Of a DNA stretch of 50,468 bases, positions 28,641 through 33,747 are shown piece by piece (position 1 is the stretch's first letter; the number at the start of each line of letters is the position of its first letter). Location of the stretch: NCBI GenBank assembly GCA_001816475.1, contig MHCC01000022.1:1-50468 (forward strand). Reading direction: 5' to 3'. The notes beneath the pieces were generated by a model. It did not search any database. It saw only the letters and a list, made by a program, of their open reading frames with translations, and was not told where the DNA came from. The DNA is from Candidatus Blackburnbacteria bacterium RIFCSPLOWO2_01_FULL_40_20. Lineage in GTDB: Bacteria > Patescibacteriota > Microgenomatia > UBA8517 > UBA10165. A program made the translations under genes and the position numbers.

Positions 28641-30293
28641 ATGAAAAACTTACGAATTGCTTTGATTGTCCTGATGGTACTTTCAATACCCACTTTTTTT
28701 CAAATGTTAAGGTCGGGAATATATTCAATGCAGGATTTTCACCTTTTTAGATTGTATGAGTTCGATCGATGTGTAAAAGATTTACAACTCCCTTGCCGTT
28801 GGTCGCCTGATGTGGGATTGGAGTACGGCCAACCTTTGTTTAATTTTTATACACAACTTCCATATGCGCTCGGAGAATTTTTTGTTTTAGCCGGTTTATC
28901 AAAAATTGATACGATTAAATTGTTGTTTATTTTTTCATTGGTGGGCTCCTCAGTATCCATGTTTTTTTTAGCACAAAGATTTTGGCGAAAAACCTCTAGC
29001 GCGTTAGTTTCCGGCATAATTTATCTTTATGCACCTTACAGGGCAGTTGATGTATGGGTGAGAGGTGCACTCCCAGAAGCCCTTGCATTCGTGTTGTATC
29101 CTGCCATAATACTGTTTTTTAATAATTATTTGTCTTCCAAAAAAACGAAGGATTTAATTTTGTTTTCCGTATTATTCGCTGTACTTATAAATGTTCACAA
29201 CTTGTCTGCGTTGATGTTATCACCTTTCCTTGTTTTATGGGGAACATTTGTTCTGTTTCAAAACAAGGGATGGAGGAAGATATTTTTGCCTCTTATAGGA
29301 GCGTTACTTTTTTCATTTTCTTTATCTTCTTTTTATTTAATTCCAGTGATCGCAGAGTCGAACCTAGTTCATTTAAATTATACAATTTCCGGTTATTTTG
29401 ATTTTAGAGGACATTTTGCAGCAATAAACCAAATTCTTTTTTCCAGGTTTTGGGGATATGGCGGATCAGTTTTTGGAACGGAAGATGGCTTAAGTCTTTC
29501 TGTTGGGTTAATCCAATGGGCACTTCCCCTTTTTGCTATTTTGGTCTTTTTTGCCAAAAATCACAAGGACAGATGGAAAGTTCTCGTGCTTGTACTAATT
29601 GGTTGGATCAGCCTATTTTTTACTCACAACAGGTCGGCGTTTATATGGGAAAAAGTTTCTGCCTTGCACTATCTACAGTTTCCGTGGCGTTGGCTTTCGA
29701 TCGCAGTCTTTTCTTTTTCTCTAGCATCAGGAAGTATTCTGGTTCTCGTCAAGAAATATGAAAAGGTTGTATGTGGATTGATTGTTTTGGCAGTTATCGT
29801 ACAGAACGTGACATTTTTTAGAGAAGACATATGGTATAAAATTAATGACCAAGAGCAGTTTTCTGGAGAAAAATGGGAACAGCAAATTGCCTCATCAATA
29901 GGTGATTATTTGCCAGCCACTGCTTTCCAGTTTCCTTTCAAAATCGCTCCACCAAAACCTTCGTTTTTGGATGGTTCTGGTAGCAGTGAACTCGTAGAAA
30001 AGAAAAGTAATAAATTAACCTATAAATTAAATGTTGATACAGACTCCCAGGTCCAATTTCCTGTGGCATTTTTTCCTGGGTGGGGAGTGTCTGTTAATGG
30101 TCAAAAAGTGTTGGCACAACCGTCGGGGGAATACGGCCTAGTTACAGCAAATGTTCCCAAAGGAAGTCATACGATAGTTTTAAATTTTTCGGATACTGTG
30201 CCACGAAAAATAGGAAATATTGTTTCAGCAGCTTCTATTACTGGTTTGTTAATATTATATATTGTTAGGAGGAGAAGCAAAAATGCAGCCTAA
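28641..30293 (+). CDS. PTPS-related membrane protein with YfhO-like C-terminal domain
   Basis: A 550-residue protein of the family named 6-pyruvoyl-tetrahydropterin-synthase-related (a membrane family; the name does not imply pterin chemistry). Typical marks are QDFHLFRLYEFDRCV (31-45, D32 and H34), then EYGQPLFNFYTQLPY (61-75), and PYRAVDVWVRGALPE. About ten helices follow. The outer C-terminal domain has FFPGWGVSVNG (477-487) and VPKGSHTIVLNF, as in the YfhO proteins at 12028 and 14390. It is probably a GT-C-type sugar transferase. It sits among GT39 genes, 6 nt after one and overlapping the next by 11 nt. Confidence 0.8.
   Translation: MKNLRIALIVLMVLSIPTFFQMLRSGIYSMQDFHLFRLYEFDRCVKDLQLPCRWSPDVGLEYGQPLFNFYTQLPYALGEFFVLAGLSKIDTIKLLFIFSLVGSSVSMFFLAQRFWRKTSSALVSGIIYLYAPYRAVDVWVRGALPEALAFVLYPAIILFFNNYLSSKKTKDLILFSVLFAVLINVHNLSALMLSPFLVLWGTFVLFQNKGWRKIFLPLIGALLFSFSLSSFYLIPVIAESNLVHLNYTISGYFDFRGHFAAINQILFSRFWGYGGSVFGTEDGLSLSVGLIQWALPLFAILVFFAKNHKDRWKVLVLVLIGWISLFFTHNRSAFIWEKVSALHYLQFPWRWLSIAVFSFSLASGSILVLVKKYEKVVCGLIVLAVIVQNVTFFREDIWYKINDQEQFSGEKWEQQIASSIGDYLPATAFQFPFKIAPPKPSFLDGSGSSELVEKKSNKLTYKLNVDTDSQVQFPVAFFPGWGVSVNGQKVLAQPSGEYGLVTANVPKGSHTIVLNFSDTVPRKIGNIVSAASITGLLILYIVRRRSKNAA
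30267..30272 (+). promoter_or_regulatory. Strong Shine-Dalgarno site (AGGAGG)
   Basis: AGGAGG lies 10 nt before ATG 30283, inside the end of the previous gene. It selects 30283 over the in-frame upstream TTG at 30262. Confidence 0.75.
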
Positions 30294-31998
30294 ACAATTA
30301 ATTGTTTTATTGCTTATCGTTTTGTTGGGTTTTTCTGTTCGTGTAATAAACTTACAAAGTACTCCTCCTAGCTTAAATTGGGATGAAGTTTCCCATGGAT
30401 GGAACGCTTACTCAATATTAAAAACTGGGCAAGATGAATGGGGGAAAACCTTTCCAATTTCAAATTTTAGAGCATATGGAGACTATCCGCTTCCGCTAAA
30501 TTTATATTTGACAATTCCGAGCATACAGCTTTTTGGATTATCAGAGTTTTCTCTTCGTTTTCCTCATGTTCTTTTAGGAGTTGGGACAATAATTTCGACA
30601 TTTTTTTTAGTGCAAGGTTTAAGGTTTGGTCCTGTCGTAAGCCTTTTATCTGCACTCTTTGTAGCAATTGATCCTTGGACTTTATTTCCGTCGCGCGCAG
30701 TTTTTCAATCTAATCTTTCCATATTTTTCATAACGGCGGGGTTTGCATTTTTCTTTAATCGGGAAAAACATAAAGTATTATTGCCTATATCATTTTTTTT
30801 ACTTGGCTTATCAGTTTATTCTTACCACAATTCCCGAATTTTTATGCCTTTGTTTTTGGCAATTATATTTTTTATATGGAAAAAGGAAATGCTTGCGTTA
30901 TGGATAGGAGAAAAAAAGATTCTGGTTGGCTCGTTAATTATTTTACTAACTTTCTTCATACCTCTTGTAGCAATTTTTTCGAGTCCGGACGCAAGAGCGC
31001 GTTCAAGGTGGGTTTTTTTAATTGACGATGGAGCAATAAACAAAATTATTGAACAAAGACAGTTGTCACAGTTCTCTCCTCCTGTTACAAAATTGATTTA
31101 CAACAAGTATACTTACTTTGCGAGCGAATTTAGTAAAAATTATGTTGGTTACATATCAGCCCGATTTTTGTTTTTTGAAGGAGGAACCCAATATCAATTT
31201 AGTGTTCCAGGCAAAGGGCTACTTTATCCGATAAATGTATTTTTTTTCTATGCGGGAATTTTTCTCGTAATTCTAGGAGCTTTTCGAAGAAAAAAGGAGC
31301 ACCTTACCATTTTTGCTTGGGCGTTAATAGGCTTAATTCCTGCTTCGATAACTACTGGAGATAATCACGTTATAAGATCAACTACGGTTCTTCCACTACC
31401 TCAAATTTTTACCGCATTGGGCGCTTTCGTTGTATGGAATTGGTTAAAAGATCGATTGCGGTTGTTCCATAAAAGTCTGTTGCCAATATTTAAATTGTCC
31501 TATTTTGTGATACTCGCTTTAATGGTTATCAGTTATTTAAGCTTATATTTTGGAGAATACAGAGAAAAATATTCATGGTCTTGGCAGTATGGCTATAAAG
31601 AAGCGATAGATTATGCAAAAAGTCATTATGGAGAATACAATCAAATTATTGTGACAAAAAAATATGGAGAACCGCATGAATTTTTTCTTTTTTACTGGCC
31701 TTGGGATACAATCAAATACCAAAGAGATCCTAATCTTTTAAGGTTTTATCAGTCTGGATGGTATTGGGTGGATAGATTTGATAAGTTTTATTTTGTAAAC
31801 GACTGGGAAGTTCCCAAAAACAGTAATGAAAAATGGAAGATGGAACGTGGTGGTGAATTCGAAATACGAGGCAATGCACTTTTGATTACAAGTCCAGAAA
31901 ACTACCCAGGTGAGTGGAATTTAATGGAAACTATCAATTTTTTAGATGGAAAACCGGCTTTCTCTATTTTAGAGAGAAATGTTGGAAATTATCCCTAG
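30283..31998 (+). CDS. GT39 (PMT-like) membrane glycosyltransferase, array member 3
   Basis: A 571-residue protein whose start is fixed by AGGAGG at 30267-30272. Motifs: SLNWDEVSHGWNAYSILKTG (30-49, D34/E35; the usual Ala after DE is Val and the usual Gly-Tyr is His-Gly-Trp), FGLSEFSLRFPHVLLG, DPWTLFPSRAVFQSNL in place of SPWHLxxSRxAFE, then EPHEFFLFYWPWD (463-475) and INFLDGKPAF. These substitutions make it the most divergent member of the array, perhaps with a different substrate. It is followed by the 84-nt spacer with nested palindromes. Confidence 0.85.
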   Translation: MQPKQLIVLLLIVLLGFSVRVINLQSTPPSLNWDEVSHGWNAYSILKTGQDEWGKTFPISNFRAYGDYPLPLNLYLTIPSIQLFGLSEFSLRFPHVLLGVGTIISTFFLVQGLRFGPVVSLLSALFVAIDPWTLFPSRAVFQSNLSIFFITAGFAFFFNREKHKVLLPISFFLLGLSVYSYHNSRIFMPLFLAIIFFIWKKEMLALWIGEKKILVGSLIILLTFFIPLVAIFSSPDARARSRWVFLIDDGAINKIIEQRQLSQFSPPVTKLIYNKYTYFASEFSKNYVGYISARFLFFEGGTQYQFSVPGKGLLYPINVFFFYAGIFLVILGAFRRKKEHLTIFAWALIGLIPASITTGDNHVIRSTTVLPLPQIFTALGAFVVWNWLKDRLRLFHKSLLPIFKLSYFVILALMVISYLSLYFGEYREKYSWSWQYGYKEAIDYAKSHYGEYNQIIVTKKYGEPHEFFLFYWPWDTIKYQRDPNLLRFYQSGWYWVDRFDKFYFVNDWEVPKNSNEKWKMERGGEFEIRGNALLITSPENYPGEWNLMETINFLDGKPAFSILERNVGNYP

Positions 31999-32082
31999 GT
32001 GGTTATAGAAATCCACCACGTCATACGTGGTAGGGACGTATGACGTCCCACTTCCCAGGTGGACACATGTGGACATTTTATA
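31999..32082 (+). repeat. Structured spacer: two palindromes with mutually complementary cores and a direct repeat
   Basis: This is the largest gap in the plus run and is visibly more G/C-rich than its surroundings. Palindrome A: ACCACGT-CAT-ACGTGGT (32015-32031). Palindrome B: GGGACGT-ATG-ACGTCCC (32033-32049). Their 11-nt cores (32018-32028 and 32036-32046) are exact reverse complements, so the RNA could form either two 7-bp hairpins or one 11-bp stem with loop GGTAGGG. A direct repeat GTGGACA-CAT-GTGGACA follows (32059-32075). TCCACC (32012-32017) can also pair with GGTGGA (32058-32063), closing the whole element. Confidence 0.85.
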
Positions 32083-33747
32083 ATGATTAAGCATGAGTTG
32101 AAAATACTATTCCTAATACTAGTTTTGGCAACCTTTCTGCGGTTTTGGGGGTTAGGGACAACCCCCCCGCATCTTACAAGTGATGAGGCTGCCTTAGGAT
32201 ACAATGCCTATTCAATCTTAAAAACTGCTCGAGATGAACATGGCAATCTTTTACCAATTGTATTTAAGTCTTTCGGAGATTGGAAACCCGGATTATATGT
32301 ATATTTGGATGCGCCCTTCGTTGGATTGTTTGGGTTGAATGAAATGGCAGTTCGGCTGCCTGGAGCAATTAGCGGGATTGCCGCAGTTTTCTTTGTATAT
32401 TTGGTTGGGAACAGACTCTTTCCAGAGAAAAAATTAGGCTTATTTTCTTCGTTTTTCTTAGCAATTTCCCCTTGGCATTTGCAGTTTTCAAGAGGTGCGT
32501 GGGAAGCTGGAGTTGCCCTAACATTGATTTTGGCCGGTATTTATTTCTTCCTTAGGGCAATTCAAGGCAACAGTCGTTGGTTATGGTTGTCCGCTTCTTT
32601 TTTTGCGTTGACTTTATGGGCTTATCAAGGAGGGAAATTGTCGGTGGCTATCGTTATTGCTGGTCTATCAATATTCTTTTTCAGTGAATTAATAAAAGTC
32701 CCTCGAAAAGTCTTAATGCTTGCGTTCCTTGCCGGGTTTATTTTTTCATTACCAGTAGCCTTGAGTTTTTTTCAGGGTAAGACGGGTAGGCTTGAGGTAT
32801 ACAGTGTTTTTTCCTATCAAAGACCAGAAAAAGACATAAAAGAAATATTAGATCAAGAATCTGCAGTTAAAGGGTCACTTTCCTATGTCTTGTTTCATTC
32901 TGAGAACTTAAATCTAGCACAAGGAGTTTTAGGTAGATGGATGAACTATTATTCAGCCCGCTTCTTATTTTTTGAAGGAGATTGGAGCAATCCTCGTCAT
33001 GGAGTGCCCTATTCGGGTGTTTTACTTTTAGCAGACTCTGTATTACTTTTATTAGGACTTGTGGCTTTATCAAAAGCGGGTAATAGCAAAAGTGCGTTGT
33101 TTGTATGGTACTTGTTACTTTTAAGTTCTCTTCCTGCCGCCTTGTCTCGTGATTCAATTCATGCCGTTAGGTCTTTAAATATGCTTTTCCCGCTTGTTTT
33201 TATATTGGCACTTGGGGCAAGTTTTGTTGTAGAAAACAAAAAGAAATTGAAGTTTGCTTTTCCTCTATTGTTAGGTCTGTTTTTTGTCATTTACGCTGCA
33301 AATTATACATACTATCTTGATCAATATTGGGTACATGCGCCCAAGAAAAATGCACCCAATTGGCAAGTTGGTTATAAGCAAATGGTAGAGAAGGTGTCGG
33401 CCTTGCAAGATAAATACCCAGAAATTGTGATCAAACAAGATTATGCTCAACCTTACATATTCTTTTTGTTTTATCAAAAGTATGATCCGGATAAATATCA
33501 GAAGATCGCTCAAGATGTCTATGTCCCAAACGAGTACGGTGATGTCGGGTTTGTCTCGCGCTTGGACAATATTACTTTTCGCGATATTAATTGGTCAGCA
33601 GACCGCGGCATGAGTGGTAAACTTTTTGTGGTAGATCCAATAAAGGTTCCTGTTGCCGATTCAAGCGATCCGAAGGAGTTTAAGTTAGTCGATGAAATAA
33701 AGTACCCCAATGGCCAAACAGCCTTTAGGCTATTAGAAATTCTATGA
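32083..33747 (+). CDS. GT39 (PMT-like) membrane glycosyltransferase, array member 4
   Basis: 554 residues from ATG 32083. An in-frame GTG at 32059 would add eight residues coded by the direct repeat of the spacer, and alignment with array member 5 favours 32083. Motifs: LTSDEAALGYNAYSILKTAR (31-50, D34/E35), FGLNEMAVRLPGAISG, SPWHLQFSRGAWEAGV, then AQPYIFFLFYQKYDP (455-469) and IKYPNGQTAF near the end. Its closest visible relative is the next gene, with which it shares almost every motif, indicating a recent tandem duplication. ATGA overlap couples the two. Confidence 0.87.
   Translation: MIKHELKILFLILVLATFLRFWGLGTTPPHLTSDEAALGYNAYSILKTARDEHGNLLPIVFKSFGDWKPGLYVYLDAPFVGLFGLNEMAVRLPGAISGIAAVFFVYLVGNRLFPEKKLGLFSSFFLAISPWHLQFSRGAWEAGVALTLILAGIYFFLRAIQGNSRWLWLSASFFALTLWAYQGGKLSVAIVIAGLSIFFFSELIKVPRKVLMLAFLAGFIFSLPVALSFFQGKTGRLEVYSVFSYQRPEKDIKEILDQESAVKGSLSYVLFHSENLNLAQGVLGRWMNYYSARFLFFEGDWSNPRHGVPYSGVLLLADSVLLLLGLVALSKAGNSKSALFVWYLLLLSSLPAALSRDSIHAVRSLNMLFPLVFILALGASFVVENKKKLKFAFPLLLGLFFVIYAANYTYYLDQYWVHAPKKNAPNWQVGYKQMVEKVSALQDKYPEIVIKQDYAQPYIFFLFYQKYDPDKYQKIAQDVYVPNEYGDVGFVSRLDNITFRDINWSADRGMSGKLFVVDPIKVPVADSSDPKEFKLVDEIKYPNGQTAFRLLEIL

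Follow-up and report, generated by a model that had tools for sequence, protein, structure and literature searches.

A likely nested insertion of a REPIN-like double hairpin between two GT39-type genes of a Microgenomates bacterium

The window, which is the whole 50,468-nt stretch of Candidatus Blackburnbacteria DNA that was analyzed, contains an 84-nt gap between an open reading frame ending at 31998 and a downstream gene with its ATG at 32083. We consider it likely that this spacer is a nested insertion, in which a REPIN-like miniature mobile element of 35 nt, recognized as folded single-stranded DNA, sits inside a REP-type palindrome. The double hairpin formed by the element probably acts as a genomic parasite and not as a gene switch. 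A preliminary description of the sequence had suggested that the spacer might be an attenuator, an RNA switch or a small mobile REP-like palindrome. Our results support the last of these because copies are dispersed, their stems covary, they are inserted in REPs and in each other, and relatives lack the spacer; the attenuator and the RNA switch found no such support.

Layout of the spacer and its flanking genes

The features of the region, in window coordinates, are the following.

30262-31998, + strand: upstream GT39-type (PMT) membrane glycosyltransferase gene (open reading frame with predicted start; Pfam PMT)
31993-32017, unstranded: REP-like left arm CCCTAGGTGGTTATAGAAATCCACC, including the upstream stop codon TAG (31996-31998)
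32015-32031, unstranded: hairpin 1, ACCAC-GTCATAC-GTGGT, whose outer ACC comes from the target REP arm
32018-32052, unstranded: 35-nt unit ACGTCATACGTGGTAGGGACGTATGACGTCCCACT parting the two REP arms, an insertion of the same length relative to the intact REPs of genome G001
32032, unstranded: 1-nt linker, A (A or T in 39 of 40 family copies)
32033-32049, unstranded: hairpin 2, GGGAC-GTATGAC-GTCCC
32053-32063, unstranded: REP-like right arm TCCCAGGTGGA, 11 nt identical in the G001 REP copies
32059-32075, + strand: direct repeat GTGGACA-CAT-GTGGACA, overlapping the right REP arm and lying outside the double-hairpin family
32083-33747, + strand: downstream GT39-type (PMT_2) gene (open reading frame; Pfam PMT_2)

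The palindromes described previously could be confirmed. The two 7-3-7 palindromes are exact (32015-32031, ACCACGT-CAT-ACGTGGT; 32033-32049, GGGACGT-ATG-ACGTCCC) and together read ACCACGTCATACGTGGT-A-GGGACGTATGACGTCCC. Their 11-nt cores, ACGTCATACGT and ACGTATGACGT, are perfect reverse complements of each other, and the sole exact match of the core in the window is the spacer itself. The third 7-3-7 unit is a direct repeat, as had been claimed. The gap folds more stably than shuffled sequences do: its RNA fold has a z-score of -2.1, with 9 of 200 shuffles equally good; the DNA fold of 31995-32082, which favours the 11-bp stem in the window copy, has a z-score of -3.3, and none of 200 shuffles was as good. 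An Rfam search of the spacer matched no family with a score above gathering, and a consensus scan revealed no terminator-like site on the strand of the genes. A default repeat finder reported nothing for the spacer, because arms of 7 nt are below its thresholds.

The palindromic feature extends to the left beyond the gap: its REP-like arm begins near 31993 and takes in the last codons and the TAG stop of the upstream gene. The right arm and TCCACC (32012-32017) make up an outer palindrome that encloses the insertion. The same 35 nt may also be read in another way, with a CCAC repeat on both sides.

Both flanking genes match the Pfam models PMT or PMT_2, which fits GT39-type membrane glycosyltransferases. 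Orthologues of the downstream gene are found throughout the order, and the upstream gene is its conserved neighbour in relatives. In each of the eight relatives in which these orthologues are neighbours, one gene abuts or overlaps the other (gap of -44 to +2), so the 84-nt gap is a derived insertion, and no conserved spacer between the GT39 orthologues was detected in the relatives checked. Any influence of the insertion on the expression of the two genes may be incidental. An in-frame GTG at 32059 is an alternative start of the downstream gene. Separately, an ATG at 32068, which comes after the AGGTGG of the right REP arm, opens a frame of seven codons (window 32057-32091); this frame stops at TAA 32089-32091, just beyond the start of the downstream gene, with which it might be translationally coupled.

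A dispersed family whose stems vary but remain paired

The unit, a double hairpin of 35 nt, combines invariant GTCnnAC and GTnnGAC cores and a linker of 1 nt with stems that are free in sequence but paired. Aligned copies consist of five variable positions, GTC-nn-AC, the five partners and one A/T, followed by the mirror image with GT-nn-GAC; each stem is thus made up of five variable and two fixed pairs and carries a 3-nt loop, with GTC at the apex. The unit reads nearly alike on both strands.

Using a pattern in which only the loop cores and their spacing are fixed (GTCnnAC, 11 nt, GTnnGAC), we found six copies with the exact geometry in the genome of the window (958 kb), versus none for a reversed control pattern. 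Among 374 genomes of the class, 33 had a slightly richer pattern and 3 had the control pattern, and when the spacing of the cores was left free between 6 and 30 nt, 11 nt was dominant. A strict pattern scan of GTDB, with one genome per species, yielded exact matches on 20 contigs. Of these, 17 belong to Patescibacteria, including 16 from Microgenomates; they comprise Woese-, Gottesman-, Roizman-, Levy- and Shapirobacteria, another Microgenomates bacterium and one Parcubacterium. The stems of the three matches outside Patescibacteria are unpaired, as expected of chance matches. The loop cores, the 1-nt linker and the length recur across distant families of the class. The proposed search for the cores elsewhere therefore revealed many dispersed copies, both in the genome of the window and in related genomes. 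We found no description of the double hairpin in Patescibacteria in the open-access literature.

Copies for the covariation analysis were taken without a filter on pairing. The two-hairpin fold scored 0.519, versus 0.149 for shuffled alignments and at most 0.14 for slid structures; 90.6% of the cells were paired versus 69.3% after shuffling, and there were 101 double-change cells versus 31 +/- 3.9. Covariation is therefore strong for the two-hairpin fold. Other copies and covariation, whose absence the preliminary description would have counted against its claims, were thus both found. The alternative long stem did not covary (0.143 versus 0.150 shuffled, 35 copies). Hence both of the exclusive folds proposed can form in the window copy, but conservation across the family is seen for the two-hairpin fold only, and the bistability of the window copy is a local coincidence.

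In a set of 40 copies, prefiltered to at least 4 of 5 pairs per stem, 385 of the 400 stem pairs are Watson-Crick, 7 are G-T and 8 are mismatched. That G-T pairs are so scarce points to pairing at the level of DNA and not of RNA, or to repair that makes the palindromes perfect. Alternatively, the compensatory stem changes could result from mutation that perfects palindromes or from selection on a transcribed hairpin.

Two further observations concern related motifs. A variant in which an additional A adjoins the loop (CAC-A-GTCAAAC-GTG) recurs in several families of the class (loci L080, L087, L088 and L091, and the right arms of L083, L089 and L095). In genome G074, a 21-nt motif with 11 pattern matches, mostly GTCAAACGTCCAGCGTTTGAC or near it, resembled a short-stem variant and was excluded from the family because it reads as one long hairpin. 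This genome (L335-L342) has a distinct dispersed palindrome, GTGTCAAACGTCCAGCGTTTGACAC, with about nine copies among the places seen and containing the word GTCAAAC.

Nesting, target sites and candidate enzyme

The relative G001 contains a REP whose core is TTCCACCTCCCAGGTGGAA; its pattern has 15 matches there, and a RAYT-like (Y1 transposase) gene has one of them on either side. A further copy of this REP is interrupted after TTCCACC by precisely GAGTCAAACTCGGTAGGCAAGTCTGACTTGCCACT, a 35-nt double hairpin (insertion point TTCCACC^TCCCAGGTGGAA). The layout of the window is like that of G001, with the left arm followed by 35 nt and then the right arm; the left arm fits the layout of the G001 REP copies (CCCGAGGTGC..TATTCCACC), and the host REP around the insertion matches the palindrome flanking the RAYT-like gene of G001. 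The match between the REP arms of the window and the G001 REP is good only over TCCACC, TCCCAGGTGGA and CCC.AGGTG. Contig C18 of the window's genome carries a REP-like paralogue without insert that starts with CCCTAGGT. Double hairpins are also nested in each other: in genome G128, a complete element is located inside the loop of hairpin 1 of another copy (L327), and a decayed element inside hairpin 2 of another copy (L334). At the level of sequence, these precise nested insertions are the best evidence of mobility. The copies of any one genome do not make up a set that is nearly identical and moved recently. Those of G213 that are near-identical were weighed as a case of recent movement; they share their flanks and look like duplications.

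The ends of tRNA and tmRNA genes are overlapped by 2-4 nt in 11 of the 40 copies, where 0.19 would be expected from random placement in the same loci, and copies are found at the 5' as well as the 3' ends of different RNA genes. At tRNA ends, the tRNA itself provides the outer bases of the hairpin, from either its first bases or its ACC(A) end; they vary from tRNA to tRNA, and the inner arm is complementary each time. Within one genus, the leader of tRNA-Cys is filled in G206 and G343, and the element is absent there from G237, G318 and other members. A second genus has it in two tRNA-Glu(CTC) leaders, where its stems differ and are still paired; these may represent one insertion that evolved, or two insertions.

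No gene tied to the double hairpin was found: 96 Y1_Tnp loci (297 kb) yielded only one GTCRWAC hairpin, and the genome of the window gave no Y1_Tnp match, even at E <= 0.1. Y1_Tnp genes are present in 28 of the 33 motif-bearing genomes (absent from G000, G030, G038, G110 and G181), and they are common in the window's order anyway. We examined whether the double hairpin flanks RAYT-like genes, both in the order and in the genomes that bear the motif, and found other palindromes there instead, e.g., GGTCAGACC and GGGTTCCGAACCC. The enzyme is therefore assigned by analogy with REPINs, TnpA-REP and IS200/IS605, and because the host site is associated with a RAYT REP; on these grounds a Y1/HUH-type enzyme is the most plausible candidate.

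Other palindromes were encountered in these searches. Long, perfect palindromes built around GTCNGAC (such as TTGCAAGGTCAGACCTTGCAA) flank three RAYT-like genes of the order (L109, L110 and L127), and the cores of these palindromes resemble the loop cores of the double hairpin. In a 330-kb sample of the window's genome, from which hairpin density was taken, a second REP-like palindrome, ACTCCGAT-NNN-ATCGGAGT, is present in seven copies (L288:16367, L289:449, L291:3396/18489/19151, L294:19741 and L301:7868), although no Y1 transposase gene was detected in this genome; three of the seven are flanked by CCC(C)TAACGT or CCCCAACGT...AAGTGGG(G). Contig C1 of the same genome (L288:6770-11958) contains six 17-nt hairpins of the type CTYGYRC-NNN-GYRCRAG within 5.2 kb, with stems that are variable yet paired.

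The mechanism that we propose is as follows. A REP-type palindrome would have been present at the end of the upstream gene, and the 35-nt element, two head-to-head 17-nt hairpins with a one-base joint, would have inserted within it and parted two genes that were ancestrally abutting or overlapping. The element would be non-autonomous and move as folded single-stranded DNA, and it would depend on an enzyme that reads the GTCnnAC loop and the hairpin shape, not the stem sequence; the most plausible one is a Y1/HUH-type transposase of the IS200/IS605-RAYT kind. Insertion would take place into or beside existing stem-loops without clear target duplication, so that the target could supply one side of the hairpin foot. 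IS200/IS605-type insertion likewise proceeds without target duplication. A bolder version, which we put forward as doubtful, is that these are lineage-specific mobile double hairpins, recognized by loop and shape only, that land at the ends or tips of stem-loops (tRNA genes, REPs and other copies) and complete their own foot by pairing with or copying the target, their stems being remade at or after each insertion.

If the proposed mechanism is true, Microgenomates harbour a REPIN-like element under selection for its loop and the shape of its hairpins, not for stem sequence, and this element strongly favours tRNA ends and other hairpins. It would provide an example, open to testing in very small genomes, of single-stranded DNA mobility whose targeting is guided by structure, and would account for odd intergenic palindromes that annotation may mistake for a riboswitch or an attenuator.

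Alternative explanations and comparison with known systems

The REP arms and the double hairpin might have entered the gap together, as one composite unit mobilized by RAYT. The double hairpin is indeed found within REP-like flanks at three sites (the window, G001 at C3:630058 and the window's genome at C2:10894), but we hold a joint entry to be somewhat unlikely, since 15 REP matches in G001 are free of the insert, as is the REP layout of the C18 copy, and REP-like flanks are missing from most double hairpins of the class. Another possibility is a conserved RNA element, i.e., a transcribed double hairpin that serves RNA processing or stability or acts as a tRNA leader or trailer, and that is kept by selection on RNA structure. 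Strong covariation, the many copies directly at tRNA/tmRNA ends and the position of the window copy between co-directional genes would all agree with this. However, copies are present at both ends of different RNA genes and also in REPs, they nest in each other and their presence varies within a genus; moreover, G-T pairs are very rare and the unit is nearly the same on both strands, which makes selection as RNA improbable.

Palindromes can also be imagined to be made and perfected by template switching during replication, without any mobility. This would explain the near-perfect pairing, and the fact that the hairpin feet match whichever target base adjoins, and template switching may contribute to the change of the stems. 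As the origin of the family it is very improbable, because the recurrence of the loop cores, the 1-nt linker and the length across distant families is more than local mutation would produce by itself, and because the insertions are nested and precise. It is scarcely credible, finally, that the spacer is a bistable attenuator or switch of the downstream GT39 gene. Both folds can form in the window copy and its DNA fold prefers the 11-bp stem, but conservation of both folds was not observed, the long stem being without covariation across the family. Furthermore, relatives that keep the gene pair have no counterpart of the spacer, there is no terminator-like site on the genes' strand, and Rfam gave no match, so the reading as a bistable switch is not supported. 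The nested insertion of a mobile double hairpin in a REP is the reading that we prefer, and it can be compared with several known systems.

REPINs, described in Pseudomonas and other bacteria, are inverted REP doublets mobilized by RAYT, for which compensatory changes have been reported; a single-strand intermediate was proposed, in which complementarity between tail and target would restore symmetry (PMC3116915). The unit described here resembles them in being an inverted doublet of short palindromes that is intergenic, multicopy and apparently non-autonomous, and that folds as one long hairpin or as two. Unlike REPINs, in which the REP sequences are highly conserved, its loops are conserved and its stems vary, the linker is 1 nt, and there is no constant, unpaired GTAG tag: only 12 of the 40 copies have TAG or CTA at the centre, and the GTAG at 32030-32033 of the window copy is there by composition only. 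Neither the 96 Y1_Tnp loci nor the window's genome contained a RAYT gene flanked by the double hairpin.

GTAG- and CGTC-tagged REP dimers are arranged head-to-head, and in some families the dimers are located inside other palindromes; neighbouring genes may take their stop codons from REPs, and CGTC REPs also occur without a dedicated transposase (PMC3733652). The head-to-head doublets, the insertion within palindromes and the supply of a stop codon are shared with our case. In these families, however, the tag is located at the stem end; in CGTC REPs the CGTC is unpaired at one end of a stem of 8-9 bp, with a loop of 4-5 nt and a CCA-like tail (PMC3733652), whereas here the invariant GTC is at the hairpin apex, the stem has five variable and two fixed pairs and the loop is 3 nt.

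The ends of IS200/IS605-type elements and TnpA-REP involve recognition of folded single-stranded DNA and choice of the target by short base pairing (PMC8266576), but the window's genome is without a Y1_Tnp match, and the likeness of the double hairpin to these systems is one of analogy. The double-hairpin elements (DHE) of fungal mitochondria consist of two small, GC-rich, adjacent hairpins and are potentially mobile with no known enzyme (PMC10085805). They share with our unit the two adjacent hairpins and the location in intergenic regions and RNA genes; they are organellar and fungal, and the likeness is one of layout, with no sequence relation claimed. Thus, although it lacks the GTAG tag and the flanking RAYT gene that mark the REPIN class, the unit works like a REPIN or a mitochondrial DHE.
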